Source of the DNA: Candidatus Poribacteria bacterium
Lineage (GTDB): Bacteria > Poribacteria > WGA-4E > WGA-3G
DNA: 35,293 nucleotides
Direction: 5' to 3'
Assembly (NCBI GenBank): GCA_022824265.1
Contig: JAJEAG010000023.1
Location: forward strand, 1-35,293
Part shown: positions 3,730-23,064 of the stretch, piece by piece
Layout of the letters: each line of letters opens with the position of its first letter
Numbering within the stretch: the stretch's first letter is position 1
Program-made: the position numbers and the translations under genes
The notes under the pieces: model-generated
The model's input: only the letters and a program-made list of their open reading frames with translations
The model's database searches: none
Told to the model about the DNA's origin: nothing

Positions 3730-3778
3730 TAAATGAGAATTGCATTGTTTTTTGACAATCTTAATAATGAAATTGTAT

Positions 3779-4024
3779 AATTAACAGAACTTACGCAAAA
3801 ATGGTAGGCGCGCTTTGATGAAGATTAATTTATTCTTTCGGTAATATTAATCTCCTAATACCTGTAGGCGCGCTTTGTAAGCGCGCTGGACTTCAATAGT
3901 AAATTACCGAATCTATTTTTTAATCTTCATGTAAGCGCGCTGGAAACTCAGAATTCTGCTGAAAAAAACACCATTTTAGTCATAATTATTGAAAATCGTG
4001 AAAAGTGCGTAAGTCCTGAATTAA
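3779..4024. mobile_element. MITE-like element with CAGRACTTACGCA-type termini
   Basis: CAGAACTTACGCA at 3785-3797 is matched by inverted TGCGTAAGTCCTG at 4006-4018 with one mismatch. The similarity extends outward through TAATTAA-like bases to about 3779 and 4024. The roughly 246-bp interior has no open frame and contains a GTAGGCGCGCTTTG...TAAGCGCGCTGGA hairpin that is itself split by the 113-bp element at 3818-3930. ACTTACGCA ends are common on small transposon-derived elements; I have not assigned a transposase family. Confidence 0.6.
3818..3930. mobile_element. 113-bp palindromic element, copy 2
   Basis: This is a near-identical copy of 961-1073 with the same length, ATGAAGATTAA...TTAATCTTCAT ends and central GCGCGCTTTGTAAGCGCGC. 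It is inserted inside GTAGGCGCGCTTTG | GTAAGCGCGCTGGA, a copy of the very hairpin the element carries at its own centre. The G on each side may be a one-base duplication. The termini are better matched here than in copy 1, so this may be the younger copy. Confidence 0.7.
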
Positions 4025-4064
4025 TTGAAAAATAACAAAACTTACACATAAGGTCCTTAGAACG

Positions 4065-4201
4065 TATCTCATAAATCACTTATAGGGGCGGGGTCTCCCC
4101 GCCCGATTAGAAGCACCCTTTCTATATGGGGCGAGGTTACCTCACCCCTACGATGAAAATATGATTTTCTGCCAGAGATCAGATAAACAATTTATGAGAT
4201 A
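4065..4201. mobile_element. MITE-like element with 12-bp terminal inverted repeats
   Basis: TATCTCATAAAT at 4065-4076 is the exact reverse complement of ATTTATGAGATA at 4190-4201. The interior contains GGGGCGGGGTCTCCCCGCCC and GGGGCGAGGTTACCTCACCCC hairpins and no open frame. The right end lies 36 bp before receptor 2, so the element probably contributes to its leader or promoter region. Confidence 0.55.
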
Positions 4202-4237
4202 GACTATAAAATAATAAAAGATACGGAGTCACTGGCA

Positions 4238-6505
4238 ATGAAAAATATTCTATGCCTAATAATGCTTCTTTTCCTACCTATTACTGCCTTTTCTCAAACA
4301 GGTACAATTGAAGGTACTGTTTATAGTAAAGACACGGATAAACCATTAGCAGGAGCAGAAGTTCAAATAATTGAGATTGACAAACGATTTATCACAGATG
4401 AAAATGGCACGTTTTCCTTCATAGAAATCCCTGAAGGTAAGTATACGTTGTCTATTACCTACCCAAATACTGAATTATCAGAAAAAATTGAGATAGTTGT
4501 AGAAACGGATAAGATCCTAACACCCACTATTTATGTTAGCACTAACGCTTATGAGCTTGAGGTAATTGAAGTAATTACGAAACGAACGCCTAAAACTGTC
4601 ATAAAAAAGAGCATTCAATCACAAGAAATTACACGACTACCCGGAACAGCAGGAGATGCACTGCGTGCACTACAAGCAATACCAGGTATCGGTGTAGCGA
4701 ATGATTTTAGTGGGGCACTCTATATTCGTGGCGGTTCCGATGAAGATAACCTCTATTATTTTGATCGTGTACCTGTCGGATATCCATACCACTTCGGTGG
4801 TCTCGTTTCATCTCTCAGTTCTGAAATCATCGACCGGATTGATGTCTACGCAGGGGGTTATGGAGCGGAATATGGTGTAGATTCTCAAGCAGTTATAGAT
4901 ATCTATTCTCAAAACAACAGTCCAGAAGCTCTAAGGGGAAAACTCAACCTAAATCTTTTATATTCAGAAGGATTACTTCAAGGCAAAATTGGTGAAAAAG
5001 GATTTTGGTATGCAGCTGGACGTAGGAGTTATATAGATTTATTTATCGGTTCACTGTCTTTCGCAACTGGAGCAATCACAGCATTTCCAAGATTCTGGGA
5101 TTACCAACTAAAGGCTGGCTATGATCTCACTGAAAAACATCAACTCTTTTTCAATCTGTTTGCATCGGGAGATAAATTCGCAGTTAAATTAGACGGTGAA
5201 AATGTGGATGAAGATTTCAGAGGAAATACCAGTTTTGAAAGCGGGTTTGAGGGTGCGGGGATTCACTTCCGTTCAGCCCTAACCGATAGACTCACCTCCT
5301 ATTTATCCTTAACTCGATCAAATTTCTTGTTTGATGTCAATTTCGGTCCTACAATCTCGCTTGAGATTGATGCACCAAACTACACCTTACGGGAAGATAT
5401 TACGTATGAGTTAAATGAAAAACATAGATTGGAGACGGGGTTAATCCTTGGACTTGAACCCGGTGAGGTGTCTGGAACATTCACACGTATCCCAGACGAG
5501 GGAGAAGTGGAGTTTGATATAAGGTTTGAGGAGAAGAACACTATAAACGAATCTGTTCTTGGACAGCGCATCGAAGGTTATTTGCAAGATAGGTATGATA
5601 TACTACCTTTTATGTCAATCGTGTACGGTGTCCGATTTGATTATTTCAACCGTGTGGATGAACTCTCGGTTCAACCGCGCGGCAGTATTCGGGTAGTACT
5701 TCCCAATACATCTGAACTTCAGTTTGCTTATGGAATATACAACCAGACTCCTATTCCCGCACAACTCTCATCAAGTGTTGGCAACCCTAATTTGAAGTCC
5801 AGTCAGGCAAGTCATTACATTGTTGAACTCAAACGTCAACTTTCACAGGATACAGAAATCAAAATTGCCGCTTATTATAAGGATTTGGCTAATTTAGTAA
5901 CTTCTGATATATCATCTATCTATCTTAATCAAGGTGTTGGTTATGCCCAAGGAACAGAGGTTTTTCTACGACATCGTAGTGGTGACAGGTTTTTCGGGTG
6001 GGTGTCTTATGCTTATGCGTTATCAAAGAGACGTGACCGTTTAGGTGAACCTTATCGGTATTATTCATTTGATCAAACACATGTCGCCACATTAGCGGTG
6101 AGTTATAACCTTACACCTACTTGGGAGTTTGGAGCAAAATGGCAATATCGAACTGGTAATCCGTATACTCCCGTCGTAGACGCGCAACTCGTTGTAGACC
6201 CAAGATTTGCTTTAGAAAAGGACCCAGAGGACATCACTATCACTGACTTTATCCAAAATTCTGTCTATATTCCAATATATGGTGAAACCAACTCAGAAAG
6301 ATTTCCTCCTTACCACAGGTTGGATCTACGTATAAGCAAAACCTTCCGATTTAACAGTTGGGAATTGGGACTTTTTCTGGAATTACTAAACACCTATAAC
6401 CGTAAGAATCTTCTTGATTATAATTATAATGAAAACTACACAGAGATAAACCCTATTTACCAATTCCCAATTATCCCATATTTAGGTATCACTGCCGAAT
6501 TCTAA
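4238..6505 (+). CDS. TonB-dependent receptor with carboxypeptidase-regulatory-like N-domain (receptor 2)
   Basis: This 755-residue paralogue of receptor 1 has a signal peptide at 1-19 (cleavage near FS-QT). A regulatory-like beta domain follows at 22-100, beginning GTIEGTVYSKDTDKPLAGAE. The plug is at about 110-220, with LYIRGGSDEDNLYYFD and YAGGYGAEYGVDSQAVIDI, then a barrel ending LGITAEF. Compared with receptor 1 it lacks two long extracellular-loop-like insertions, one in the first third of the barrel and one near 3080-3150 of receptor 1, which suggests divergence in ligand specificity. GGAG lies 9 nt before the ATG, a normal distance. The next receptor starts 22 bp downstream, so the two are likely co-transcribed. 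Transport role is a family inference; the cargo is unknown. Confidence 0.9.
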   Translation: MKNILCLIMLLFLPITAFSQTGTIEGTVYSKDTDKPLAGAEVQIIEIDKRFITDENGTFSFIEIPEGKYTLSITYPNTELSEKIEIVVETDKILTPTIYVSTNAYELEVIEVITKRTPKTVIKKSIQSQEITRLPGTAGDALRALQAIPGIGVANDFSGALYIRGGSDEDNLYYFDRVPVGYPYHFGGLVSSLSSEIIDRIDVYAGGYGAEYGVDSQAVIDIYSQNNSPEALRGKLNLNLLYSEGLLQGKIGEKGFWYAAGRRSYIDLFIGSLSFATGAITAFPRFWDYQLKAGYDLTEKHQLFFNLFASGDKFAVKLDGENVDEDFRGNTSFESGFEGAGIHFRSALTDRLTSYLSLTRSNFLFDVNFGPTISLEIDAPNYTLREDITYELNEKHRLETGLILGLEPGEVSGTFTRIPDEGEVEFDIRFEEKNTINESVLGQRIEGYLQDRYDILPFMSIVYGVRFDYFNRVDELSVQPRGSIRVVLPNTSELQFAYGIYNQTPIPAQLSSSVGNPNLKSSQASHYIVELKRQLSQDTEIKIAAYYKDLANLVTSDISSIYLNQGVGYAQGTEVFLRHRSGDRFFGWVSYAYALSKRRDRLGEPYRYYSFDQTHVATLAVSYNLTPTWEFGAKWQYRTGNPYTPVVDAQLVVDPRFALEKDPEDITITDFIQNSVYIPIYGETNSERFPPYHRLDLRISKTFRFNSWELGLFLELLNTYNRKNLLDYNYNENYTEINPIYQFPIIPYLGITAEF

Positions 6506-6527
6506 TAACATTACTTAGTAGGTATCA

Positions 6528-8600
6528 TTGAAACATATTTTTCTTATTTTTCTTATCATATTATCATTCTATGCTTTTGGACAAGATGATGACACAGCAA
6601 TTGACGAAACATCGGAAGACGTTGTAACCTTACCACCCGTTGTAGTCGAAGGGGAGCGAATTGAAAAGAAACCAAAACGCGCCATAACAGGTGATACGAT
6701 TACAAGTGCTGTAGGTACAGGTGGAGATCCACTTCGGGTTTTAGATAAACTACCGAGTGTCGGTGTACTGAACGATTTTGTCGGTATTCTTTCTGTTCGT
6801 GGTGGTGGACCTGAAGACAACATCTACTATTTCGATCGCTTACCGTTAGGATATCCCTATCATCTCTACGGAATCGTCTCTACCATGAACGCAGAAGTCA
6901 TAAATAATATAGATGTATACCCCGGTGGATACGGAGTAGAGTTCGGTTCCAACTCACAAGCGGTGATTGACATACATTCACGTTCAAGAACAGATAAACT
7001 TATCGGTGGAAAACTCAACCTAAATCCTGTATATTCTCAAGCGTTTTTTGAAGGAAGTATAGGGAATCGTGGATACTGGTATGTTTTCGGACGGAGAAGT
7101 TATATGGGTCCTCTGTTCGAATTGTTACCGATATTGCTGGAGATTGAGAACGACTTGGTAACCCAAGTACCCAGTTTCTGGAGTTACCAAGGTAAATTCG
7201 TCTATCAATTAACAAAAACACATAGATTAGTTGTAAACGCTCTTGCAGCTAACGATGTCGGTAAACTTCACTTTACATCTGATGAAGTGTCTGATAGTGA
7301 TTTGCGAGGTCCATTGAGTACAGAAAATCCATTTGATTCCCAAGGTATCCATTTCTATTCTGAGATAAAAGAAAGATTTAAATCAGTTGTGTCGTTGTCA
7401 CGTTCCTTTTCTCGTTCACATCTGGAATACGGGGATGGCTACTTATATCGGGATTCTGAAAGCACTTATTCTTTACGCGGTGATGTTCAGTATTGGGTAA
7501 AGTTTCCAAAGACACTGCTTGAATCAGGTTTTGATCTTTCAATCCTACCAACAAATCTTGTAAGTGTCGGTGCACGACCACTGGAAGAAGGTGATTGGGA
7601 TTTTGACTTCAGACTAAAACAAGATGGAGAAAAGATATATACTGACATATCCCAAGACATACATCGTATGGAAGGATATTTACAAGCAACTCAAGACCTC
7701 TTTTCTACACGTTATGCTGACCTTTATGCCACCTTAGGGGTGCGATCAACATATTACAATCATATAGAAAACTTTTCACTTCAGCCACGCGGGCTGCTCG
7801 GTTTAACCATTGGACCTGAACAAATCAACACTGTAGGATTTTCACTCCTACCCGTAGACATACGTTTTATGTATGGAAATTACGTTCAGAACCCGCATTT
7901 TTACCATATAGTATTGGGAAGAGAGAATCCAGACATTTCCCCAAGTCATGCAACACATTATGTTCTCACAATAGAAAAGAACCTTACCCATGAAACGAGA
8001 GTTGAAGTTGCAGGATATTACAAAAACCTTCATGATATGATTACTTACAACCTTACAGATAGACAATATGAGAATCAGCGAACTGGATCGGCGAAGGGAA
8101 TTGAGGTGTCCTTAGAACATGATTTCGGTGATGCGTTTCGAGGATGGTTAGCATACTCATATACGCTTTCCAAACGGCAAGATTCTACGAAGGATAAAGA
8201 AAGAGAGTTTATGTTTGGCACACCGAATGTTTTGTCTGTTGGACTGAATTACAAACTTGAGCCGTTTGAATTCGGTGCAAATTGGCAATTTAAGAGCGGG
8301 GTGTTATACGCTACTTTAGAAGATAGAGAACGTTATACAAATCCATTTACAAAAAATCAAACATGGATTCCAGTTTACGGAGAAATCGTCCGCTCCTCAC
8401 CATATCACCGCTTAGATTTACGCATTCACTATTCCATCCGATCGATTTTTGGGTTGAAAGGTGGATTGAACTTAGAATTTTGGAATGCCTATAACCGAAC
8501 GAATATATTGCAAGTACGTTATAACGCCAATTATACTAAAGAAGTCCCTGTTGCTCAATTACCGATAGTACCATTCCTTGCTTTGACTTTAGAGTTCTAA
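6528..8600 (+). CDS. TonB-dependent receptor lacking the N-terminal regulatory domain (receptor 3)
   Basis: The protein has 690 residues if translation begins at TTG 6528; no in-frame ATG precedes the hydrophobic signal sequence (LIFLIILSFYAFG). Unlike its two neighbours it goes from the signal peptide through a short acidic linker (DDDTAIDETSEDV) to VTLPPVVVEGERI and directly into the plug. The plug carries LSVRGGGPEDNIYYFD and YPGGYGVEFGSNSQAVIDI. The barrel ends FLALTLEF. The order of three shrinking paralogues suggests tandem duplication with loss of the N-domain in the last copy. The three plugs may share a TonB partner but recognise different ligands; that is inference. Confidence 0.88.
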   Translation: MKHIFLIFLIILSFYAFGQDDDTAIDETSEDVVTLPPVVVEGERIEKKPKRAITGDTITSAVGTGGDPLRVLDKLPSVGVLNDFVGILSVRGGGPEDNIYYFDRLPLGYPYHLYGIVSTMNAEVINNIDVYPGGYGVEFGSNSQAVIDIHSRSRTDKLIGGKLNLNPVYSQAFFEGSIGNRGYWYVFGRRSYMGPLFELLPILLEIENDLVTQVPSFWSYQGKFVYQLTKTHRLVVNALAANDVGKLHFTSDEVSDSDLRGPLSTENPFDSQGIHFYSEIKERFKSVVSLSRSFSRSHLEYGDGYLYRDSESTYSLRGDVQYWVKFPKTLLESGFDLSILPTNLVSVGARPLEEGDWDFDFRLKQDGEKIYTDISQDIHRMEGYLQATQDLFSTRYADLYATLGVRSTYYNHIENFSLQPRGLLGLTIGPEQINTVGFSLLPVDIRFMYGNYVQNPHFYHIVLGRENPDISPSHATHYVLTIEKNLTHETRVEVAGYYKNLHDMITYNLTDRQYENQRTGSAKGIEVSLEHDFGDAFRGWLAYSYTLSKRQDSTKDKEREFMFGTPNVLSVGLNYKLEPFEFGANWQFKSGVLYATLEDRERYTNPFTKNQTWIPVYGEIVRSSPYHRLDLRIHYSIRSIFGLKGGLNLEFWNAYNRTNILQVRYNANYTKEVPVAQLPIVPFLALTLEF

Positions 8601-8692: not shown

Positions 8693-10924
8693 TTGGACTC
8701 TTCTTTATCATCTTTCCCTAAGTTAAAAAGAATCACATATCACCTATTTTCACTTTCAATATTACTCTTAAGCATATTCTCTGTTTGTGCCGATACCACA
8801 ACCTACCAGATAACTGCATTCCGTACTTATGAGAGTATTGAGATTGATGGAGAACTCAGTGAAGCGGATTGGCAAAAAGCAGAGACTATAAACCAGTTCG
8901 TGCAAATTGAACCGTATGAAGGGCAAAAGAGCACCGAACCGATGGAAGTGCGCATCCTCTACGATGATGACAATATCTATCTCGGTTTTAAATGCTATGA
9001 CAAAGAAATCTCACGACTGATTGCCAATGAAATGCGTAGAGACGCACGTGACATACATGAAAACGATAATGTATTCGTGCTGTTAGATACATACAACGAC
9101 AAACGGAGTGGCTTCTTTTTTCGCGCAAACGCCTTAGGTGCAATCCAAGATAGAGTAATTACAAATAACGGAGACACACTCAACGATGACTGGGATGCAG
9201 TTGTAGCATGTCAGTCAAAAATACACGACAATTGCTGGACAACAGAAATTAGCATACCATTTAGCCAACTCCGTTTCAAAAAAAGCGACCCAATGCATTG
9301 GGGATTAAACGTTGGTCGTGAGTTAATGCGAAATCAAGAAGAATCTATATGGGCACCAGTGCCTTCTTCTTTTGGCGGATTAGCAAAATATAGAACAACG
9401 AATCTCGGTTCACTTGTCGGTATAAAAGGTATTTCACCTTCACGAAACATAGAATTACTGCCTTATGTGTTGCCAGGAATTTCACATAACAACGATGATG
9501 ATACAGGACAAGAAACTACTCGGCAATTCAAACTCGGTTTTGATGCAAAATACGGCATCACATCTAATTTGATTACTGATATTACCTATAATACAGACTT
9601 TGCGCAGGTTGAAGCAGATGAAGAGCAAGTCAACCTTACGCGATTCAGTCTTTTTTTCCCTGAAAAACGTCCCTTCTTTTTAGAGGGGGCAGGTTTGTTC
9701 GATTTTGGTATCCCAAGGCAGAGTTTTCGTAGACCTCCTCCGATGTTGTTATTCTATAGTCGACGCATCGGATTGGCTGAGGGAAATGCGATACCCATTA
9801 TATTTGGTGGCAAAGCAAGTGGAAAGATAGGTTCTTATGGCGTAGGATTCCTCAATGTTCTGACTGATAAATTCTATGACGAAAACGGTGATGATGAACC
9901 GATTGACATACAACGTAACAATTTCTCTGTCATACGAATTACTAAAGACAGTGTTGCAGGTACTCGATTCGGTATGATTGCTGTCAACAAAGATGAGGTG
10001 GGTAACTACAACCGCGCAGGTGGATTCGACTTTGAATTCCGTCCAAACGACAATCTTGATGTACGAGGGATGTGGGCGAGAACTTTCTTCCCAGGTATGT
10101 CCGGAAAGAATAATGCATTTTATTTCGGAACAAGATTGCGAAAGGATACTTTGCGTTTCAGTGCTTCCTATACAGATATAGATGAAGATTTTGATCCTGC
10201 TGTTGGATTCGTCCGTCAAGCAGGAACTCGTCATGCCCGAACTGATTTCCGTTGGGCACCAAGACCACAAAAATACGGTATTCGTGAAATGTGGTCAGGT
10301 CCAGAAGCAAACTACGTACTCAATCAAGATAATGAATTAGAACGCTGGAATCTATCCTATACACATTGGACATCATTTACTACTGACGACTCTATTATGG
10401 TTTTTGTGAGACGAGAATATGAACGACTTGATGAAGATTTTGAAATTCGGGAGGATATCTTTATTCCAATCGGTCAATACGAATTTAATAAATTCGGTGG
10501 ACGATTCTCAACCAGTGATATTCGCATCATAAATGCTACCACAGGTTTCGAGTTAGGAAATTTCTATAACGGTAATATTCGGAAATATTATGTTGATTTG
10601 GGAATGAAACCGAATGGAAGGATCAGTATACACGCAAACTACCAATTTAATCGTGTAAATTTACCTGAGGATAGTTTTGAGGCAAACCTTTTTTCAGGAA
10701 GACTCAACTATTCGTTCTCTACAACGCTATTTGCTAAACTCTATGCACAATGGAATACGGAAACAAACCTTGTGTCAACCAATTTCCTGATAAACTACAT
10801 TTATCGTCCGGGAAGTGATTTCTATTTTGTGTTCAATCAAACCTACGATACAGATAAGACAACTCAGACTATACTGCAAAGTTCAACGGTAGTCGCAAAA
10901 ATGACGTTCTGGTGGAATCCGTAA
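8693..10924 (+). CDS. CBM9-like plus DUF5916 outer-membrane protein
   Basis: The 743-residue protein starts at TTG. The signal peptide covers roughly 1-33, with hydrophobic LSILLLSIFSVCA. A carbohydrate-binding-family-9-like domain follows at about 45-225 (IEIDGELSEADW, VRILYDDDNIYLGFKCYD, WTTEISIPFSQLRF). The remainder matches what I know as DUF5916, including VEADEEQVNLTRFSLFFPEKRPFFLEGAGLFDF, split here as a recognisable block near 295-335. That domain is predicted to be a barrel. Proteins of this design often accompany TonB receptors in glycan- or peptide-using bacteria, but no enzymatic activity is established. It follows receptor 3 by 92 bp. Its stop codon abuts the stop of the opposing selenoprotein gene with no spacer. 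Confidence 0.85.
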   Translation: MDSSLSSFPKLKRITYHLFSLSILLLSIFSVCADTTTYQITAFRTYESIEIDGELSEADWQKAETINQFVQIEPYEGQKSTEPMEVRILYDDDNIYLGFKCYDKEISRLIANEMRRDARDIHENDNVFVLLDTYNDKRSGFFFRANALGAIQDRVITNNGDTLNDDWDAVVACQSKIHDNCWTTEISIPFSQLRFKKSDPMHWGLNVGRELMRNQEESIWAPVPSSFGGLAKYRTTNLGSLVGIKGISPSRNIELLPYVLPGISHNNDDDTGQETTRQFKLGFDAKYGITSNLITDITYNTDFAQVEADEEQVNLTRFSLFFPEKRPFFLEGAGLFDFGIPRQSFRRPPPMLLFYSRRIGLAEGNAIPIIFGGKASGKIGSYGVGFLNVLTDKFYDENGDDEPIDIQRNNFSVIRITKDSVAGTRFGMIAVNKDEVGNYNRAGGFDFEFRPNDNLDVRGMWARTFFPGMSGKNNAFYFGTRLRKDTLRFSASYTDIDEDFDPAVGFVRQAGTRHARTDFRWAPRPQKYGIREMWSGPEANYVLNQDNELERWNLSYTHWTSFTTDDSIMVFVRREYERLDEDFEIREDIFIPIGQYEFNKFGGRFSTSDIRIINATTGFELGNFYNGNIRKYYVDLGMKPNGRISIHANYQFNRVNLPEDSFEANLFSGRLNYSFSTTLFAKLYAQWNTETNLVSTNFLINYIYRPGSDFYFVFNQTYDTDKTTQTILQSSTVVAKMTFWWNP

Positions 10925-12484
10925 TTAGTGTTCTTCAATTGATATATTCGCATGAAATGCGTTGATATTGCCTTTACCACTGAACCAAGTGCCAGTAGCA
11001 CCTAATTTAAAGACCATACCTTTGTCAAATTGGTATTGTATTGTTCCGCTTTGTCCTGAGGGAATATCCCAGACAGATGCAACTGCACCAGTTGGAATAC
11101 CTTCTGTTGGTAATTCTGTATCGCTATCAAATAGATCAAACGATCCACCAGAAATTGCACTACCCATCCGTATATCAATATTTAGTGTGCCACCATTTTT
11201 ATAAGTTGTGGCATCTATTGTAATGACATTGTAATCTTGTTCTCCGTGTCTTGGCGCGCGAAGAATATGTAGAACCTCTGCCTCATGATGTTCCCTATCA
11301 AGGACAATATTTGCACCTGTCAACATAGGATCCGATGTGTTCTCACCAAAACCGGGGAATTTGGCATCTAATGAGTCGTTTAGAAAGGTAAGATATCCTT
11401 CCTCATCTGAAATTCCACTTCTATAACAGTCATCAAAGAAATCATTCAACTGGAGTTTTCCCATCACATCAAATTCTGGAGAAATAACCAAGCAATCCAC
11501 TGGCGAATGCTCTGTCCAACCCTCCATGATGGGTTTGGCAAATGGATGCGATCTATCAAACGCATTTGGTAAATCCTTTCGCCTTACTGCCATGTATGCT
11601 TTCTTTCTGGGTGTGCGTTCTAATTCAACATTGGAAACCCATACATTGATGAATTTATCATTCAAGAATTCAATAACTCCGTCATCAGAGAGGACACCTG
11701 CCCTCAAACCTTTTCCGCTTCCTCAGCAGGACTCATCACGCAACGGACCGTCTATTGAAATAACATGGATTAATTTACCTTGGTCTTCTGCCAGTTTTGA
11801 TGCTTCAAAAGGAGATATCCAGTTAATTTGCTCTGATTTGTAGAAACATAACGCCAGTTTGCATTCTGCTTCTTCATGTGTAATGTATTCTGGGTATTCT
11901 GTGCTATTCACAACATCTTGTGTTTCCACTGTTAATTCCATTTTGGAGCAAAAACCTGCGTCAGTACTACTGTCCCAATTGATGTCAACGTTCACTGTGC
12001 CATCAGGAACGGACATCTTGAAGAAAACAACTTTCTCTTCAATTTGGTCAATTATGAGATTTCCAGAAAACTGTGAGGGTGTGAACCAACCACCATCTAA
12101 CTTGAATTCAGCGTGTATGCGAAACTGTATGTCTGCGAATCTATCGTTATATGCACGTAGGCATGCCCACAATCTGCTGGAGTCCCCAGAGTCAATATGC
12201 ATATCCAAATTTGGATTAGGATTAAGTTGACGGAGTAATTCCAAAACACCTGTTTCTTCTACCTGCCAACAATCACCTACTGAAACAGATTCTGAGGGCA
12301 AAAAGCTTTGAAAAACCGAAGTCGGATATCTCTTCTCTGGTTCAGTCACCTGTAGATTTACCAATTCATCCCACTCTATATGAAAGTGGGACAATGTATG
12401 CTCCATCGGTACAATGAACCCTTTGACAGATACTACTCTATCTCTATTGAGATTTAGGTTGATTTTGTTTTGTAAGATACTCAA
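10925..12484 (-). CDS. selN: Selenoprotein N homologue 1 (UGA-encoded Sec254)
   Basis: I read one 519-residue protein through UGA 11723-11725; conventional reading gives halves 11723-12484 and 10925-11707. The frame across the UGA is D-E-S-C-U-G-S-G-K-G-L-R. The first half carries SELENON-family blocks such as FRIHAEF, FTPSQFSGNLIID and NWDSSTDAGFCSKMEL. The thioredoxin-like core runs from INWISPFEASKLA through the SCUG site to FINVWVSNVEL and SPVDCLVISPEF, where the Pro fits the thioredoxin cis-Pro. A C-terminal beta domain lies at about 390-519 and includes GSFDLFDSDTELP. The start is TTG 12484, preceded at 5 nt by AAGGAAGG and touching the stop of copy 2. This is the last gene of the array. 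No signal peptide is visible, so it should be cytosolic. The redox role is inferred from the animal family. Confidence 0.88.
11690..11705 (-). promoter_or_regulatory. bSECIS-like hairpin of copy 1
   Basis: On the coding strand it reads GAGGGC-AGGT-GTCCTC: six pairs including one G-U wobble. It starts 17 nt after UGA 11723-11725. Confidence 0.75.
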
Positions 12485-14095
12485 TTAACCTTCCTTTACA
12501 GTTATTGTTGCGTGAAATGCGTTGACACTTCCTTTTTCACTGAACCAGTTGCCGGTAGCACCTAACTTAAAACGTTTGCCTTCCTCAAAACGATACTGGA
12601 TTTTACCCGTTTTACCTTTTGGAATATCCCATGCAGAGGCAAGTGCTTCAGTAGGAACACCTTCGATAGGTATATCGCTATCACCACCAAACAGATCAAA
12701 CGAACCTGCAGGTTCAGCATTCCCGACCTGAATATCAATGGTAAGCATACCACCATCTTTTATCTTTGTTGTATCAATTTCAATGATAGTGTAGTCTTGA
12801 TAACCGTATTCAGGTGTTTGAAATATGTTCAAAACGTGCTGACTTAAATGTTTGGGATTGAGTTCAACATTTAATCCGTTAACCTTACTCACTTGAACCT
12901 TTTTCGCTATGTTGAAAAAAGCGTTCCAATCAATAGTATGCGATGCATAACCGTTATTATCCAAGCCAGGATTTTGACCTGATAGTGCAGCCTGAATAAA
13001 CTTTCGATACGACCTACCACTACCTTTAAATTCGTTGATTGGTAAGCTTCCCAACACCTCAAAGTCAGCAGAAATAACCATACAATCTACAGGTGAATGT
13101 TGATGCCATCCCTTCATAATTGCTTTGGTAAATGGAAGTGTTGTGTCATAACCTACTGAATCATCTGGGTAACGCTTTGGAAAGTATTCTTTATTGACAT
13201 CAGTTCGTTTTAGTTCTACATTGGAAACCCAGGTGCTAATAAGATTTTCATTTAGGAATTCGATGGTCTTATCATCAGAGAGAGCAACTGCTCTCAAACT
13301 TTTGCCAGTCCCTCAGCAGGACTCATCTTTGAGAGGACCATCAATTGAAATAACATGAATAGGTTTTTGTTGTGTTGCTGCTAATTCTATTGCTTCTTCA
13401 AACGACACCCAATTTATTTCTTCAAACTTGTAGAAACAACGCATTAGCTTCTTATTTATTTCATCTTGAGAGATAGATTCTGTAAATTCTATGTCTTTAA
13501 GTATATTTAGATTGTCAGAATGAAGTTCCATTTGTGAACAGAAACCGGAATCAATAATGCTATATGGTTTATCAGGATATTTTCTCCACGCAACATCAAA
13601 GTTCACTGTGTCCTCTGGAACATACATCTTGAAATAAGCAACTTTTCGTTGAATTCGGTCTATAATCAGGTATCCAGTAAACAGCGATGGAGTAAACCTT
13701 CCGTCATCAAACATAAACTCTGCATGTAGACGAAATTGGATGTCAGCGAACTTGTCGTTATATGCACGCAGACATGCCCACAATCCACTTGAATCCCCTG
13801 CGTCAATTGACATTTTCAGGTTAGGGTTAGGGTGTATCTGTTGAAGCAACTCCATTACACCCGCTTCATCAATCTGCCAAACATCACCAACTGAAATTGA
13901 TTCATTTGGGAGAAAAGATTGGAAAATTGAAGCCGTGTATTCCTTTTCAGGTTCCGCAATTCGTAAATTTGCCAATATCTCCCATTCCACATGAAAGTCG
14001 TTTTGTGTAAGTGTAATTGGTGCGATATTGCCCTTGACAGTAATAGTGTGTTTAGGGTTAAGGTTGAGTATGATATTGCCTGATTGTGTATTCAT
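12485..14095 (-). CDS. selN: Selenoprotein N homologue 2 (UGA-encoded Sec261)
   Basis: This 536-residue protein reads through UGA 13313-13315; the conventional halves are 13313-14095 and 12485-13297. The site is E-S-C-U-G-T-G-K-S-L-R, with Thr where most copies have Ser. After the UGA it reads LRAVALSDD, the only copy with Ala at that Val position. This substitution belongs to the compensatory change in its hairpin. The core ends at FEVLGSLPINEF, and an insert (YASHTIDWNAFFNIAKKVQV) precedes the C-terminal beta domain with GSFDLFGGDSDIP and LGATGNWFS. ATG 14095 directly follows the TAA of copy 3, and GAGGAAA overlapping that gene's end serves as ribosome binding site. Its TAA is directly followed by the TTG of copy 1, so the genes are probably translationally coupled. 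Confidence 0.88.
13280..13295 (-). promoter_or_regulatory. bSECIS-like hairpin of copy 2 (covarying)
   Basis: Coding strand GAGAGC-AGTT-GCTCTC: six Watson-Crick pairs, 17 nt after UGA 13313-13315. Relative to GAGGAC/GTCCTC in other copies, stem pair 4 changed from G-C to A-U and pair 5 from A-U to G-C. Both sides changed together. Confidence 0.8.
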
Positions 14096-16126
14096 TTATT
14101 TTTCCTCAACAGATATATTAAGTTGAAATGCGTTTATATTGCCTTTATCACTAAACCAATCCCCTGTAGCACCGAGTTTAAACACTTTTCCCTTCTCAAA
14201 TTCATGTGTGATTCTATCTGTCTCACAGGGCAAGACTCCCCAAGCAGAAACGAGGGCATCTGGTATACCTTCAGTTGGGAGTTCATCGTCCTCATCATAG
14301 AGATCAAACGACCCAGCGGGTTCAGCACCACCAACTTCAATATCAATGATTAACACCCCTCCACCGTCAAACGCAGTTGTGTCTATATTGATAACGTTGT
14401 AATCCTGATAACCACCTCCAGGTGAACGAAAAATATCTAATACTTGCTGTGTTTGATTTTCTTTGTTAAGAACAATGTTCAACTCCGTTGGAGTATCTTT
14501 GCTTATTTCAGTCTCATTCGTCTCTATGGATTTCATTTTACCCTCCACTGCAGTGATTTTTGCGACAAAAGCGTTTATACCACCTACTCCACCCCATTGA
14601 TCTCCAGTAGCGCACAATTTAAAACGTTGTCCTTTTTCAAAATCGTATGTTATTTGATGAGTATTGCCGGGGAAAAGACCCCAATAGAATTTCAATGGAT
14701 CAAGAACCTTTAAATATTCATCACTCTGCTGACTGTGCCAAACATCAGGATCAATACCATCGGGAACATTTTCGTTAGGTATTTTCTTATTTTCATCCAG
14801 AAGAAAAAATAATCCGACTGCACTATCACGACCAGCTTGGATTTCAATATTAAGTGTGCCACCATCTCTAAACGCTTTGGTATCTATAACAACAACGGTA
14901 TAATCCTCATGTGCCTTTTTTGGCGTGCGAAATGTGTCTAACACCTCTTGTGATGGTTGATCTGGGGTAAGGATAATGTCATTCAGTCCGGGTCGTTTAT
15001 CTTCCAATGAATCCTTGAGAAACTGCATGTATGCAATAGGTTCATCTTCAGGTCTTTTCATTTTGTCGAGGAATTCATTGTAGTCAACACTTCCCATCAA
15101 TTCAAAATCAGGTGAGATAACGAAACAGTCTACCGGTGAACCTTTTACCCATCCTTTCTTAATAGTGTTAGCTAAAGCGTGCGTTGAATTGAATGTCGTC
15201 CCTTCACGTTTACGTCTTTTTGCAATTGGGTCTTGTAAGCTGCCTGTTCGTCCCAATTCTGCATTTTCCACCCATGTATTGATAAAATTGTCGTTCAAAT
15301 AATCAATTATGTTGTCTTTAGAGAGGACACCTGTCCTCAAGCATCTGCCGGTCCCTCAGCAAGACTCGTCAAAAAGTGGTCCATCTAATGAAACAACATG
15401 TATCGGTTTTTGCTGAATCTGTGCTTGTTTAAACGCTTCCTCCAGTGTAACCCAGTTAATCTGGTGAAACCTGTAGTAGTGCGAAATTAGTTTACTTTCT
15501 GCTTCTTCTTGGGTTATTGATATAGCGAATTCAACATCAGTAGGGTATGTACCAGTAGATAGTTCAAGTCGTGGACAATAACCTATCTCCGCATAGTAGT
15601 TCCCATTCTTTTGCTTCCAACCGGCATCAAAATTAAGAGTAGTTTGCGGGACAAACAACTTGAAGGACACCATACTCTCTTGAATTCGGTCTATTACTAA
15701 ATGTCCAGTAAATTGTGAAAGTGTCAATTTACCGTTTTTCATGATAAATTCTGCATGAATACGGAACACGATTTCAGCAAGTTCGTCATTGTAAGCACGT
15801 AGGCATGCCAATATTCCACGATAGTGACCTTCATCACTATTCAGTCTAAGTTTCGGATTAGGATAAAGTTGTCTTAGTAATGTTAGTGCACTTTCCTCTC
15901 CAATCTGCCAACAATCACCTACAGAAACTGGATCGGTTGGGAGAAAGGATTGAAAAACGGATGTAGGATACTGTTTCTCAGGTTCAGCAACGCGCAGATT
16001 TGCCAATTCATCCCATTCAACGTGAAAGTTGTATTGTGTGTATTCAATCGGTTCAATGAATCCATTGACTAATATACTATCATTTTCATTGAGGTGGAGT
16101 GTTATTTTGTCTTGTAACGATTTCAT
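14096..16126 (-). CDS. selN: Selenoprotein N homologue 3 with two C-terminal domains (UGA-encoded Sec257)
   Basis: This is the largest member at 676 residues, reading through UGA 15356-15358 (halves 15356-16126 and 14096-15340). The active site is E-S-C-U-G-T-G-R-C-L-R, with Arg in place of Lys and an additional Cys five residues after U. Arg also occurs here in human SELENON as I recall it. After the core it carries two beta domains in tandem. The first (about 405-530) has VGLFFLLDENKKIP and resembles that of copy 6. The second (about 550-676) has GSFDLYDEDDELP and LGATGDWFSDKG, resembling copies 1 and 2. A short hydrophilic linker (MKSIETNETEISKDTPTE) joins them. ATG 16126 touches the UGA stop of copy 4. 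Confidence 0.88.
15323..15338 (-). promoter_or_regulatory. bSECIS-like hairpin of copy 3
   Basis: Coding strand GAGGAC-AGGT-GTCCTC: six Watson-Crick pairs, 17 nt after UGA 15356-15358. The loop AGGU is the same tetranucleotide I recall in the apical loop of the E. coli fdhF SECIS. Confidence 0.78.
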
Positions 16127-17707
16127 TCATTTTCCTCTATAGAAAATAGAAAATTTCGTGTAAAAAGCGTTAGTATACGGTTCATCATCATCCCAATAAC
16201 GCGTAACAACTAACTTAAAAAGTTGTCCATGATTGAAACTATACTCAATTTGTCGTTTGTCACCGGGTTCTCCCCATGTCCACGCAAGGCTACCTTCTTC
16301 CGATACTTCCTCTTCTGCGGGTAGTTCGAAATCCTTATCAAACAGATAGAATGCACCTTCCCCATCTTCTCTACCAACGACAATATCAACTGTTAATGTT
16401 CCACCGTTTTCAAAAGACGTTGCATCAATGATTATAATTGTTAAGTTTTCATTGTCAACTGTTGGAGTGCGGATTAAGTCTGAGACCTCTTCTATAGGAT
16501 TCTCTTTTGTGAGAACAAGATTACCTAAACCTGGATGTTTTCCTTTCAAGGCTTCCTTGTAGAATGTTAGGTAATACTCAGCACGTCGGTGTCTACTGTA
16601 CTTAATATCTTCGCTGAGTTCATTAGCGGGTTGCCTACCCATTAGCTCAAACGTTGGCGATATAACCAAGCAATCCACCGGTGATCCTTTTTTGGATCCG
16701 GTTTTCCACCCCTTGATAATCGTTTGTGCTAAGGGGTGCGTTGTGTCAATTGTCTTATCCTCGCGTTCGCGTCTTTTAGCAATCGGTTTCCGCAAACTAT
16801 GGATACGTCCTAATTCACAATTGGGTACCCATGTGTTAATAAAATTGTCATTCAAAAATTCGATGATTTGATCATTAGAGAGGACACCTGTCCTCAAGTA
16901 TTTCCCGCTCCCTCAGCAGGATTCGTCCAAGAGCGGACCGTCTATTGAGATAGCATGGATCGGTTTCTGTTGTGCCGGTGCCATCTCCAACGCTTCTTCC
17001 AGCGATACCCAATTAATTTGCTGCGATTTGTAGAAGCAGAGACTCAATTTGTGCTCCACTTCTTCTTGTGTAATAGATTCAATGAATTCAGTGTATTGCC
17101 CAACGTTTTTTATGCCAGCACGGAGTTCCATTTGCGGGCAGAAGCCGCTATCCGTAATATGACCCTCCTCGTCTGGATCAATCTTCCATTTAGCACCAAA
17201 GTTTATGGTGCCCTCAGGGACGTACATCTGAAAGAAGACAACTGACCTTTTAACTCTATCAATAACAAGATGCCCCGTAAATTGGGAAGGCGTGAACCAA
17301 CCATCCTTTAGGTCAAATTGCGCATGGATGCGGAACACAATGTAAGCGAATTCAGTGTCGTAGGCGCGGAGGCATGCCCACAAGCCTTGAGATTCGGTTT
17401 TGTGGGGCGGCAGCTCCGCACGCATACCCAGAGATGGATTGGGATGGAGTTGTCTCAGCAACTCCATAGCACCGGTGTGCTCAATCTCCCAAGGCGTACC
17501 GACAGTGACGGTTCCTTTCGGAAGAAAGTCGCAGAAAATTGAGGCAGGATACTGTTTTTCTGGTTCAGCAACGCGCAGATTTGCCAGTTCATTCCATTCA
17601 ACGTGAAAGTTGTATTGAGTATATTCAATCGGAGCGATAAATCCTTTGACAGACACTTCTGCATCACCGTCAAGATTAAGAGTAATTTTATTTTTTAACG
17701 TTTTCAT
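16127..17707 (-). CDS. selN: Selenoprotein N homologue 4 (UGA-encoded Sec265)
   Basis: The 526-residue protein reads through UGA 16913-16915 (halves 16913-17707 and 16127-16897). The site is E-S-C-U-G-S-G-K-Y-L-R. It has a charged insertion (KTGSKKG) before SPVDCLVISPTFELMG that is shared with copy 7. The C-terminal domain is a divergent type with GAFYLFDKDFELP and LAWTWGEPG, again closest to the first domain of copy 7. The gene ends at UGA 16127-16129 right before the ATG of copy 3. No comparable hairpin follows that UGA, so the same codon acts as stop and as Sec within one gene. ATG 17707 follows a 126-bp spacer, the only sizeable gap in the array, which contains a promoter candidate. Confidence 0.88.
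16880..16895 (-). promoter_or_regulatory. bSECIS-like hairpin of copy 4
   Basis: Coding strand GAGGAC-AGGT-GTCCTC: six Watson-Crick pairs, starting 17 nt after UGA 16913-16915. Confidence 0.78.
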
Positions 17708-17802
17708 TCTTCGTTATGAATTTCCTTTTCGGTATAGGATACCATTCCCATCAGAAGGTGGCAATGAGTTGCTTATACACGTTTTTGGATGCACTTATAC
17801 CA

Positions 17803-17831
17803 ATTATGTCGTCTCAATGAAGCCTTGTAAA
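17803..17831 (-). promoter_or_regulatory. Sigma70-like promoter inside the selN array
   Basis: On the minus strand TTTACA (17826-17831) and CATAAT (17803-17808) are separated by exactly 17 nt. It lies in the only long gap of the array and would drive copies 4 to 1 with a leader of about 90 nt. A weak hairpin, CATTcCCATC-agaa-GGTGGcAATG at 17743-17766, lies in that leader. Confidence 0.45.
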
Positions 17832-17833
17832 TG

Positions 17834-19519
17834 TTACATTGATTCGGGCTTTTCTGCTAGTTCCACAGAAATTCTTGCTTGAAAGGCGTTAACATATTCT
17901 TCTTTATCTGACAGTTCGGCAGGGGCGATAGCGAGTCTAAAAACTCGACCTCGGTAGAAAGGATAAGTAATTTGCCGCATTCCCCCAGGCGGAACATCCG
18001 TAGCATTGGCAATAGACTTGTCGTAACGTTGTCCACGTTCTGCGGGGAATTCGATATCGCCATCATACAAATAGAACGAACCTGCAAGTTTGGTACTTCC
18101 GAGGCGTATATCAACTGTGAGTATTCCACCCTTTTCAAAGGGAGTAGCATCAATTGTTACCATAGTGGATTGCTGATAACGAACCTCCAGAGTTCGGATT
18201 ACATCTAATACTTCCAACATAGGCTGCATAGGGTTGATCACAACATCCAAATCTGTTAAGAAGGGTTCAAAAGGACTCTCTTGATCGGGGGTATCTTCTT
18301 CCTCACCTAATAGATAAGCGAAAGAATTATCAGCACTAAACCCGGGATATTTCCCTTCTAAGGCTTCAATGAGAAAGAGGCGGTAATTTTCTGCCCTTGT
18401 CCTTCCGCCATCCCAGTCATGTCCTCCGTAAAGGAATTTATTCAAAGCGAGTTTACCCCTCAATTCAAACTCAGGTGATATAACAAAACAGTCCACAGGT
18501 GAGCGTTCGTGCCATCCACTCTTGATTGCTTGTGCTAACGGATGGGTAGTGTCAAACGCTTTAGATTCGCGGGTGTATCTTTTGGCAAGGTATTCTCGCA
18601 CACTCGGCTTCCTACCTAATTCAAAATTAGACACCCATGTGTTGATAAAATTGTCGTTCAAGAATTTGATGACGCGTTCATTGCCGAGGACAACTGCCCT
18701 CAAATCTTTACCGCTTCCTCAGCATGCCTCATCGGTGAGAGGACCATCCAGAGAAATGACATGAACAGGTTTCTGTTGTGCCGGTGCCATTTCCAATGCT
18801 TCCTCTAACGATACCCAGTTAATTCGTTGTGATTCGTAGAATCTCAGTATTAGGGAACGCTCTGCTTCTTCTTGTGTGATTGCTTCTGTGAATTCGGTGT
18901 TTTGTAGAACATCTTGTGTTCCAGCACGGAGTTCCATTTGCGAGCAATAGCCGCAATCTGTAATCCATCGGGGAGCGTCCCAACCTTCTAATGTCGTTTC
19001 CCAATGAACGTCAAAGTTAAGTGTGTCTGCGGGGAGGTACATCTGAAAGAAAACAATAGTCTCTTGTGCCCGATCAATAATGAGATGTCCAGCAAACTGT
19101 GAGGGTGTAAACCAACCGTCGGTTAAGGCAAATTCCGCGTGAATGCGAAACACGATGTGAACGAATTGATTGTTGTAAGCACGCAGACATGCCCAAAGAC
19201 CTTTAGCTTCTTCTATGCCATACATCTCCACACGCATTTCCAAAGAAGGATTGGGATGAAGTTGTTTCAGTAGTTTCTGGACACTGTCTTGTTGAATCTG
19301 CCAGCAATCACCTACTGAAACTGCCTCGGTTGGAAGAAAATCTCGAAACACAGACGTAGAATACTGCTTTTCTGGTTCTGCAGCGCGTAGATTCGCCAAC
19401 GCATCCCATTCCCTATGAAAGTTGCCTGCGGTATGCTCAATCGGTGCGATGAAGGCTTTGACCGATACATCTGCATCCCCAGCAAGATTAATTGTGATTT
19501 CGTTTGGTAACGTCTTCAT
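17834..19519 (-). CDS. selN: Selenoprotein N homologue 5 (UGA-encoded Sec267)
   Basis: This 561-residue protein reads through UGA 18719-18721 (halves 18719-19519 and 17834-18703). The site is E-A-C-U-G-S-G-K-D-L-R; Ala replaces the Ser before Cys, as in copy 6. The family blocks are intact: GLWACLRAYNNQ, FRIHAEFAL, FTPSQFAGHLIID, CGYCSQMEL, INWVSLEEALEMAPAQ and SPVDCFVISPEFELRG. An extra acidic stretch (LLGEEEDTPDQESPFEP) separates the core from the C-terminal domain. That domain is the most divergent of the array (GSFYLYDGDIEFP, NATDVPPGG). It ends with a short unique tail (AEKPESM). GAGGAAGA 6 nt before ATG 19519 supports the start. Only 2 nt separate it from the stop of copy 6. Confidence 0.88.
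18686..18701 (-). promoter_or_regulatory. bSECIS-like hairpin of copy 5
   Basis: Coding strand GAGGGC-AGTT-GTCCTC: six pairs with one G-U, starting 17 nt after UGA 18719-18721. Confidence 0.75.
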
Positions 19520-19521
19520 TA

Positions 19522-21060
19522 TTAATCTTCCTCTACTGTGAACTTTGCTTGATAAGCATTAACGTTTCCCTTTTCGTTAGATGCCCATCCCATACCTACC
19601 AATTTGTAGATTTGACCTTTTTCAAAACGATGCATCATCTGACCAATTTCGCGTGGATCATACCAACCAATATCATGTGCGCCATCAAACATATTAGCAT
19701 CTGGTCGTTTGTTATCAGCATCAAAGGAAAGTTTATGGTCTGCATCAAGCAGGAAGAATGAACCGTATGCTTTGTCGATTCCCAATTCCATATCAATAGT
19801 GAGTGTGCCGCCGTTTTCAAACGCTGTAGTATCAATCACAACAACGGTGTATTCCTGATGTCCGTATTCAGGAGTGCGAAATACATCCAATACTGTTTGT
19901 GATGGTTGGTCTGGTGTGAGGAATATGTTACCTAATCCAGGTAGTTTCGCTGCTATAGCATCCTTGAGAAACAACAGGTAATTCTCACTTTCCAGAGTGC
20001 CGTCTTCACGTCTGTTTTCTCCAAGATAATCATTGACAGGGATATGTCCTATAGTCTCAAGTTCAGGTGTAATTATCCATGTATCTACTGGTCCCCTACG
20101 CCATTTATTACTGACAATAGTCCGTGCTAAAGGCGGCATTTGCTTATGTCCCATAGTTTCAAGCAAACGTTTCAACTCAATAGTACGTATCCATGTATTG
20201 ATGTAATTTTCGTTTAGATAATTTATTATTCGATCATCGGAGAGGACAACTGCCCTCAAGTTTTTTCCGCTCCCTCAGCACGCCTCATCATCAAGAGGTC
20301 CAGCAATTGAAATAGCGTGGATCGGTTTCTGCTTTGCTTGAGCAATTTCGTAAGCCTCCTCAAATGGGACCCACTGAATTTGCTCTGATTTATAGAACTG
20401 CTGTATAAGTATGTGTTTTGCTTTTTCTTGAGAAATGAACGTTGTGTATTCTGTATCTTTTAGGTAATCTTGTGTCCCACCTTGTAGATGAATTTGCGGA
20501 CAAACACCGCCAGCAGTGCTATAACCAGCATTGGGATCGTCTTTATCTTTCTTCCAATTGACATCAAAACTCTTACCTTCTGGAACGTGCATTCGGAATG
20601 ATACGACATCCTCATTAGTTCGATCAATAATCAGATCACCTGCAAAGTGTGAAGGGGTGAACCAACCATCTGTTAATGCAAATTCTGCGTGGATCCGAAA
20701 CACAACATGTGCATGTTGATCGTTGTAAGCAAGTAGAGTCGCCCACAAACCAGAAGAATCTCCAATATCAATATGCATATTCAGATTAGGTTCAGGATTT
20801 AGTTGTTGAAGTATCTTCATTATGCCAGTTTCGACAATCTGCCAGCATTCACCGATAGCGACAGGATCGTTAGGAAGTAAGGCATTAAAATCAGTAGCAC
20901 AATACTCCTTCTCTGGCTGATGAACCCGCATATTCCGCAATGCATCCCACTCTTCGTGGAAATTAGGACGCATATCCTCAATTGGTGCGATGTAACCTTT
21001 TACGCTTAATCTATTATTACTTTTCAGATTAAGCGCGATTCTGTCTGTTGGTGTATCCAT
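19522..21060 (-). CDS. selN: Selenoprotein N homologue 6, shortest member (UGA-encoded Sec262)
   Basis: This 512-residue protein reads through UGA 20275-20277 (halves 20275-21060 and 19522-20259). The active site is E-A-C-U-G-S-G-K-N-L-R. It is the most divergent copy in the core. The otherwise conserved Cys of GLWACLRAYN is Thr (GLWATLLAYN), and SPVDCFVIS is GPVDTWIIT, so two conserved cysteines are gone while the Cys-Sec pair is kept. The stretch after FINTWV is shortened, with no Arg/Lys-rich AKRRERE block. The single C-terminal domain (GSFFLLDADHKLS) resembles the first domain of copy 3. ATG 21060 immediately follows the UGA stop of copy 7. Confidence 0.87.
20242..20257 (-). promoter_or_regulatory. 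bSECIS-like hairpin of copy 6
   Basis: Coding strand GAGGGC-AGTT-GTCCTC: six pairs with one G-U, starting 17 nt after UGA 20275-20277. Confidence 0.75.
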
Positions 21061-23064
21061 TCAATTCTCCTTTACTGAAATATCCGCTTGAAAAGCGTTT
21101 ATTCTACCTTTCCTACTAAACCAATCCCCTGTAGCACCAAGTCTAAATAATTTGCCCCTTTCAAAATGATAGGTTATACTGTCTTTCTGTCCGGGTTTAA
21201 TATCCCATGCTGAAACAAGAGCATCTCTCGGCGTGCCTTTTGTAGATAATTTTTTGTCAGCATCAAATAGGTCAAACGAACCTGACGCGTCTTGATTCCC
21301 CACTTGGATATCAATCGTTAGAGTGCCACCATCTTCAAATGCCATTGTATCAATACTCAGAACATTATAATCCTGATTACCATAACCAGGGGCACGAAAA
21401 ATATCTAATACTTTCTGAGATGGTTGTTCTCTTTCAAGAATAATCTTTATACCAGTTGAATGTGTTTCTGAAGAATGTGCATTAGGGTTTTCTTCTACGG
21501 AAATTTTTGCGTAAAATGCGTTGGTATAAGGCTTTTCTGCATCCCATTCTCCAGTAACGATAAACTTAAAAAATTGTCCCTGCACAAATTTATACTTTAA
21601 CTGACATGTCTCACCAGATTCACCACACGTCCATGCAAGGTTGCTTTTTGTTGCTATTTTTCCTTCTTTTGGGATTATGAAGTTCTCGTCAAATAGATAA
21701 AACAATCCATATCCTTCTTCTCGACCAATCAGAATATCAATAGTTAATGTTCCTCCGTTTTCAATTGATCTTGCATCAATATTGACTAATGTGACTTTAT
21801 GATTGTCAACTAAAGGAGACAGAAAGATGTCAGACACCTCTTGAGAAGGATTATCACAGGAGAGAACAATGTTTCCCAATCCTGGTTGTTTTCCTTCTAA
21901 TGATTTATTGAGAAAGTCGAGATAATACGATTCCTCTGAAGGAAGACCTTTATTTCTACGGTCATCGTCAAGATCATTAACCAGTTGTCTACCCATCAGT
22001 TGAAAATCTGGTGAGATGACGAAACAATCGACTGGAGAACCTTTTTTCGTCCCAGTTTTCCACCCCTTAATAATTGCTTTTGCTAACGCATGATCTGTGT
22101 TGAATGTTATTCCTTCCCGCAAGCACATTTTGGCAACCGCTTCCCGCATACTTGGGATACCTCCCAATTCTACATTTGGCACCCATGTGTTGATAAAGTT
22201 TTCGTTCAAAAACGCAATGATCTCTTCATCGGAGAGGACACCTGCCCTCAAGCTTTTACCACTTCCTCAGCAAGATTCGTCTGCGAGCGGTCCGTTAATT
22301 GAAATTGCATGAACAGGTTTCTGTTGCGCGATTGCCATTTCCAATGCTTCCTCCAACTTTACCCAGTTAATTTGCTCTGATCTATAGAAACGGAGGATAA
22401 GATTCTGTAATGCTTTTTCTTTTGTGATGGATTCTACGAATTCAATATTTTGGGTATTCCCATCATTGTTTGTCCAAAGTTCCATTTGTGGACAGTACCC
22501 CATATCTGTATACCAAGCAAGTTCGTTATTGTTATATCCTGCTTCTGACGTATGCCAGTTCACATCAAAATTGATGAGTCCTTTTGGAACGTGCATCCGA
22601 AAGAAACGGATGTTTCCTTTACTTCGGTCAACAACAAGGTTTCCCTGAAATTGAGATGGAGTGTACCAACCGTCCTTTAGTTTAAATTCTGCGTGAATAC
22701 GGAATTGGATGTCGGCAAGTTGATTGTCGTAACCACGGAGACATGCCCACAGTCCACAAGAATCTCCAGCATCCAAGTGCATATCCAAATTGGGTTCTGG
22801 GTGGAGTTGCTTCAGTAATTCCAACACACCAGCCTGTTCAATTTCCCAAACATCACCGACAGAAATAGGATGTTTAGGCAGGAAATCGCAGAAAATTGAA
22901 GCAGGATAATGTTTTTCAGGAACAGTAACGCGTAGGTTTGCCAAAGCATCCCACTTAACGTGGAAGTTGTAGTGTGTGTATTCAATCGGTGCGATGTAAC
23001 CTTTGACGGATACTTCTGTATCATTATCAAGATTAAGCGTGATTTTGTCCGATACCGATTTCAT
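21061..23064 (-). CDS. selN: Selenoprotein N homologue 7 with two C-terminal domains (UGA-encoded Sec266)
   Basis: This is the first gene of the array, with 667 residues through UGA 22267-22269 (halves 22267-23064 and 21061-22251). The site is E-S-C-U-G-S-G-K-S-L-R. I chose ATG 23064 (MKSVSDKITL, like MKSLQDKITL in copy 3) because GAGGAG lies 6 nt before it; an upstream in-frame start at 23097 lacks this support. Two C-terminal domains are fused in tandem. The first has LFYLFDENFIIP and LAWTCGESG (copy-4 type). The second has GSFDLFDADKKLS and LGATGDWFS (copy-1/2 type). Both lie after the core, joined by a linker with NAHSSETHSTG. A 78-bp gap without a clear promoter or terminator separates it from the HAD gene upstream. 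Confidence 0.88.
22234..22249 (-). promoter_or_regulatory. bSECIS-like hairpin of copy 7
   Basis: Coding strand GAGGGC-AGGT-GTCCTC: six pairs with one G-U, starting 17 nt after UGA 22267-22269. Confidence 0.75.

Follow-up and report, generated by a model that had tools for sequence, protein, structure and literature searches.

Seven genes interrupted by UGA

The window analysed here, the whole 35,293-nucleotide stretch of contig JAJEAG010000023.1 from a Candidatus Poribacteria metagenome-assembled genome (MAG; GCA_022824265.1, 4.45 Mb in 100 contigs), contains between positions 10925 and 23064 seven adjacent minus-strand genes that are each interrupted by a single in-frame UGA, and the question raised by the locus is how these codons are read. 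With UGA read as selenocysteine (Sec) each gene gives one protein of about 510–680 amino acids, and copies 2–7 are homologous to copy 1 along the full length, with 45–54% identity over the aligned columns. An initial annotation, made from the sequence alone, had placed a hairpin at a fixed 17 nt behind every UGA and interpreted it as a bacterial selenocysteine insertion sequence (bSECIS). Its hairpin sequences, coordinates and spacing proved base-exact on re-reading; a 16-nt hairpin with a 6-bp stem and a 4-nt loop starts exactly 17 nt past the UGA in all seven copies, and we regard it as very likely that these hairpins are bSECIS elements directing Sec insertion at the UGA. The putative elements are:

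11690–11705, minus strand: bSECIS hairpin of copy 1, GAGGGC-AGGT-GTCCTC
13280–13295, minus strand: bSECIS hairpin of copy 2, GAGAGC-AGTT-GCTCTC
15323–15338, minus strand: bSECIS hairpin of copy 3, GAGGAC-AGGT-GTCCTC
16880–16895, minus strand: bSECIS hairpin of copy 4, GAGGAC-AGGT-GTCCTC
18686–18701, minus strand: bSECIS hairpin of copy 5, GAGGGC-AGTT-GTCCTC
20242–20257, minus strand: bSECIS hairpin of copy 6, GAGGGC-AGTT-GTCCTC
22234–22249, minus strand: bSECIS hairpin of copy 7, GAGGGC-AGGT-GTCCTC

As annotated, the loop lies at nt 24–27 after the UGA with G in its second position, and the Leu codon of the stem is CTC, in all seven copies. The annotation had also stated that two stem pairs of copy 2 are changed on both sides; this holds against copies 3 and 4. 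Compared with copies 1, 5, 6 and 7, only pair 4 differs in both halves of the stem, with A-U for G-C, whereas pair 5 went from G.U to G-C through a change in one half. A +17 hairpin of this kind is found behind 22 of the 1487 TGA triplets of the window, the seven included. The genome has eight genes of the family, seven of them in the window, and a covariance model trained on the element gives the eight copies scores of 59–71 bits, with the next match at 20 bits. No match was found when the window was scanned with the Rfam gathering thresholds, as expected since bSECIS variants are short.

Agreement with the bSECIS consensus and presence of the Sec genes

The bSECIS consensus of Zhang and Gladyshev has a loop of 3–9 nt, a stem of 4–16 bp, a distance of 16–37 nt from UGA to loop and a minimum free energy of at most -7.5 kcal/mol; one of its first two loop bases is a G, and the next base is usually G or U (PMC13188914). 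For comparison, Sec-domain regions around the UGA site were gathered from the window and its relatives within the phylum, 258 distinct ones in all, of which 254 are usable for the hairpin test. In 243 of the 254 the stem is perfect over 6 bp or more and the loop has 4 or 6 nt. UGA and loop are separated by 23 nt, or by 24 nt where the stem has 7 bp, and 252 regions fold at -7.5 kcal/mol or lower. SelA, SelB, tRNA-Sec and SelD are all encoded in the genome of the window. The tRNA-Sec (78 bits, anticodon UCA) adjoins selB, whose product bears the SelB wing domains SelB-wing_2 and wing_3, while selD (L217, near 1531) has an in-frame TGA of its own (VKCAGU) followed after 11 nt by the hairpin GGCTC-CGGGT-GAGCT. 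The interpretation given in the annotation is thus well supported by the published constraints, by the Sec gene set and by the selection on the RNA described below.

The family is found in 65 of 85 Poribacteria genomes with 1–16 copies in each, and the homology runs on through the UGA. Of the 258 regions, 256 have TGA at the site and the two others have TCA and GGA, respectively; Cys codons, UAA and UAG do not occur. A seeming exception without the hairpin, L200, was found to be a frame-shifted gene and was removed from the set. tRNA-Sec was detected in 58 of the 65 carrier genomes, and in 73 of the 85 Poribacteria genomes overall; a correlation between the family and tRNA-Sec within the phylum was considered and set aside as uninformative, tRNA-Sec being near-universal there.

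Selection on the hairpin as RNA

Perfectly paired stems of 6 bp or more that begin exactly at +17 and are closed by a loop whose first or second base is G were found in 243 of the 254 regions, as against 2.3% when the same peptides were recoded with the background synonymous codons of the family. The loops are AGGT (149), AGTT (57), AGTTGA (15), GGTC (11), CGTG (5) and AGGTGA (4). For Arg in the stem only AGG and AGA are used (250 of 250 cases), although CGN makes up 77% of the background Arg codons, and the Leu codon is CTC in 242 of 250 against a background of 14%. In sequence pairs that are 55–80% identical, the synonymous identity at codons +8, +9 and +11 is 1.00, 0.99 and 0.95 compared to an expected 0.22–0.31, and drops on either side. 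A similar preference is seen next to the UGA, where the preceding Cys codon is nearly always TGC (same codon 0.97, expected 0.67) and the following codon is GGG in most cases; these flanking codons may reflect a constraint of context on how the UGA is decoded.

When 39 non-redundant sequences are aligned in the register with the 4-nt loop, 99.1% of the cells are paired, and three of the six pairs show changes on both sides: the pair at the base of the stem from G-C to U-A and C-G, another from G-C to A-U, and a third from G.U to A-U, G-C and U-A. The third base of the Arg codon is A only opposite U, the combination A-C being absent, and none of 500 shuffles matched the observed values on any of five measures. 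In other lineages the peptide changes V to E or V to P are accompanied by a slide of the register that preserves the helix, giving the stems GAGAGC-AGTTGA-GCTCTC, GAGAGCG-GGTC-CGCTCTC and GAGGGCA-CGTG-TGCTCTC, all with G followed by G or U near the start of the loop (positions 1–3). In the register-shifted subset alone (11 rows) covariation is no greater than in the shuffles. The initial annotation had left it to a covariation check whether the pairing is more than the LR-x-x-VL peptide imposes, and from the synonymous null, the codon bias and the shuffles the constraint clearly exceeds that of the peptide.

UGA also serves as the genuine stop codon in 86 of 221 complete ORFs of the family, two of them in the window, with the start of the next gene directly after. 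None of the 85 distinct genuine stop UGAs is followed by a +17 hairpin, compared to 242 of 254 Sec UGAs, which rules out a general reassignment of UGA and ties the hairpin to recoding.

Alternative explanations

The peptide L-R-x-x-[VAEP]-L is highly conserved in itself and a few of its synonymous spellings do fold, so that the hairpin could be imagined to arise from codon bias and the conservation of LRAGVL without serving any function as RNA. This is extremely improbable, being refuted by the synonymous-codon null (2.3% against 243 of 254), and the fixation of the rare AGG/AGA and CTC codons, the collapse of synonymous divergence limited to the stem codons and the register-shifted stems that track the peptide changes all speak against it. 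Equally remote is the reading in which this genome has given UGA to one of the standard amino acids; eight paralogues with an in-frame UGA would agree with it, but UGA is a normal stop elsewhere in the same family, also within the window, and the hairpin is confined to the UGAs of the Sec type. Slightly less far-fetched, yet still very unlikely, is a regulated stop where near-cognate tRNA readthrough or ribosome pausing would give a short and a long product without any Sec. The upstream half (about 253 amino acids) forms a beta domain of its own in the predicted fold, and some Sec codons give termination when selenium is low, both of which would suit such a switch. Against it stand the Sec gene set of the genome, the agreement of the element with the bSECIS constraints, the almost exclusive use of UGA and never UAA or UAG, and the position of the site, which in alignments falls on the catalytic Cys of a family with the thioredoxin fold and follows an invariant Cys.

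Some observations weigh against the bSECIS explanation. Two otherwise intact genes have lost the UGA and retain the hairpin, L155:6387–7979 with Ser (TCA) and L144:724–2415 with Gly (GGA); since their nearest relatives (71% and 68% identity, respectively) carry UGA, these copies are best read as recent losses. tRNA-Sec was not detected in seven of the 65 carrier genomes, the genome of the Gly copy (MAG G061) among them, which may be due to incomplete MAGs and strict filters. The single-sequence folding energies are ordinary compared to shuffles (z -0.01 to -1.7), showing that energy alone could not reveal the hairpin, and they were not used as evidence. A tree-based independent-pairs test of double changes pointed the same way as the covariation, with 3:0 for pair 4 and about 2:1 for pair 5, but has too few events and is underpowered because G.U intermediates take up most of the changes.

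Organization of the array

The seven predicted selenoprotein genes, defined as ORFs with TGA read as Sec and by homology among the copies, are:

10925–12484, minus strand: copy 1, 519 amino acids, TTG start, Sec UGA at 11723–11725
12485–14095, minus strand: copy 2, 536 amino acids, UGA at 13313–13315
14096–16126, minus strand: copy 3, 676 amino acids, additional C-terminal beta domain, UGA at 15356–15358
16127–17707, minus strand: copy 4, 526 amino acids coded, Sec UGA at 16913–16915, genuine UGA stop at 16127–16129 without hairpin
17834–19519, minus strand: copy 5, 561 amino acids, UGA at 18719–18721
19522–21060, minus strand: copy 6, 512 amino acids, UGA at 20275–20277
21061–23064, minus strand: copy 7, about 667 amino acids from the ATG at 23064, additional C-terminal beta domain, Sec UGA at 22267–22269, genuine UGA stop at 21061–21063

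With the exception of one pair, neighbouring genes abut or are 2 bases apart, and six of the seven are preceded by an AGGA-type ribosomal binding site located within or just past the preceding gene. The seven genes are probably co-transcribed as an operon.

The predicted proteins

In the full-length AlphaFold2 model (predicted local distance difference test score, pLDDT, 87) which is a confident one, the N-terminal domain is rich in beta structure, the next domain is thioredoxin-like and the protein ends in a beta sandwich, present in duplicate in copies 3 and 7. Modelled alone, the Sec domain has a pLDDT of 86. The best Foldseek matches of the Sec domain are DsbH-type thioredoxins, namely 7tkv (E 2e-4), 2lst (template modelling score 0.54) and 2ju5. 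The PF03190 (Thioredox_DsbH) profile matches two of the seven domains at E 0.035 or worse, below its gathering score, and sequence searches of Pfam, NCBIfam and PDB gave no family above the curated cut-off, the one exception being an AhpC/TSA domain fused to a single relative. Searched with a profile of the Sec domain, a sample of about 300 genomes from beyond the phylum gave weak Cys relatives in three, with E-values from 7e-5 to 8e-4. Their WCGYC or WCGWC aligns with C-U-G-S-G, indicating that Sec corresponds to the nucleophilic first Cys, Gly to the second Cys and Cys to the preceding Trp; the Cys relatives share the pattern WCxxCK-x10-LN-x-x-F. The Cys immediately before Sec is invariant across all intact copies, and the motif is C-U-x-x-G. 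The initial annotation had named a homologue with Cys at the UGA position and the same hairpin as a finding that would speak against bSECIS; no Cys homologue occurs within the family, the only ones being these remote thioredoxin-like proteins from outside the phylum, which have no hairpin at the corresponding position.

On this basis, the hairpin in each mRNA would recruit SelB with GTP and the Sec-tRNA(Sec UCA), and the UGA located 17 nt upstream of the stem would be decoded as selenocysteine and not as stop. The product should then comprise the beta-rich N-terminal domain, a thioredoxin/DsbH-like domain with C-U-x-x-G and the C-terminal beta sandwich; Sec would stand where WCxxC has its nucleophilic first Cys, with Gly for the resolving Cys and Cys for the preceding Trp. 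The most likely activity of the protein is that of an oxidoreductase or peroxidase based on the selenol, where redox catalysis would be carried out by the C-U pair, perhaps with resolution through the neighbouring Cys.

Two variants of the architecture were found. The relative L187:685–2406 carries an AhpC/TSA-Redoxin domain (E 8e-17) fused behind its Sec domain at the C-terminus, which hints at a peroxide-related function. Some copies (L011, L205) have a signal-peptide-like N-terminus that none of the seven copies in the window has, so members of the family may act in the cytoplasm as well as outside it.

Comparison to known systems

Like the bSECIS of the E. coli fdhF type, the Poribacteria element is a short stem-loop in the coding region directly past an in-frame UGA, with a small loop containing G followed by G or U. 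Unlike the typical bSECIS it is very uniform over hundreds of genes (17-nt spacer, 6–7 bp stem, loop AGGU or AGUU, otherwise GGUC, CGUG or AGUUGA) and has no conserved lower stem reaching to the UGA. The use of Sec for the nucleophilic Cys is shared with thioredoxin-fold selenoproteins such as the UxxC thioredoxin and the PF13098 thiol:disulfide interchange protein (PMC13188914). In contrast to these, the Poribacteria motif C-U-x-x-G lacks the second Cys of CxxC, two flanking beta-rich domains without a match in Pfam or NCBIfam are present, there is no Cys version in the family and the paralogues are strongly amplified. To DsbH (PF03190) and thioredoxin_7-like proteins the domain is related by its fold and by the weak PF03190 match, but it scores under the family cut-off, its second Cys is absent and Cys replaces Trp.

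The mechanism is the standard bacterial one, with agreement on every bSECIS property tested, while the protein family is apparently new, amplified, restricted to Poribacteria and equipped with a uniform bSECIS, and apparently unlisted in the family libraries searched and in the searched text of a 2026 selenoprotein inventory (PMC13188914). We regard it as a new family within a known mechanism, because of the agreement with bSECIS, the lack of a match in Pfam, NCBIfam and PDB, and the results of the literature searches: the inventory text as searched has no mention of Poribacteria, and in the open literature searched no paper was found with both "Poribacteria" and "selenoprotein". SelA and SelB have been listed among the genes common to many symbiont bins in a sponge metagenome (PMC5649159). 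The evidence for restriction to the phylum comes from scanning about 85,000 genomes for the pattern, where all 76 loci among the matches listed, which hold only part of the weaker hits, are from Poribacteria, and on the sample of about 300 genomes from outside the phylum. No relatives of the family were found in the phage and plasmid collections searched.

Nearly all selenoproteins have Cys homologues (PMC13188914), and a family without an internal Cys version is uncommon among them. It is possible, if somewhat doubtful, that this is a phylum-specific and (almost) obligate selenoprotein family of Poribacteria, many of which are sponge symbionts, with up to 16 UGA paralogues per genome in tandem operons, where a C-U dyad replaces CxxC in a thioredoxin-like fold. 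If so, a dedicated redox or selenium function without a Cys equivalent could be expected, for example a selenenylsulfide catalyst or proteins for selenium storage or transport. Also as it stands, an apparently unlisted selenoprotein family is added to a phylum without a selenoprotein report in the literature searched, and the amplification is large, with eight genes here and up to 16 in relatives. The at least 250 natural variants of one bSECIS, compensated and register-shifted ones included, are rich data on the requirements of SelB. Standard gene callers split each gene in two, and the family is therefore probably misannotated across the public Poribacteria genomes.

Neighbouring genes

At L011:3221–4549 (contig C15 of this genome), directly downstream of the eighth copy of the family, lies a gene for a sigma factor of the extracytoplasmic function (ECF) type, with a C-terminus that looks like the C-terminal beta-sandwich domain of the selenoproteins. 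The sharing of this domain suggests a regulatory or envelope link. In the window the array is met by genes of the opposite orientation; three successive TonB-dependent-receptor-like genes are located on the plus strand at 1222–8600, followed by a large gene at 8693–10924, and these converge on the selenoprotein array.
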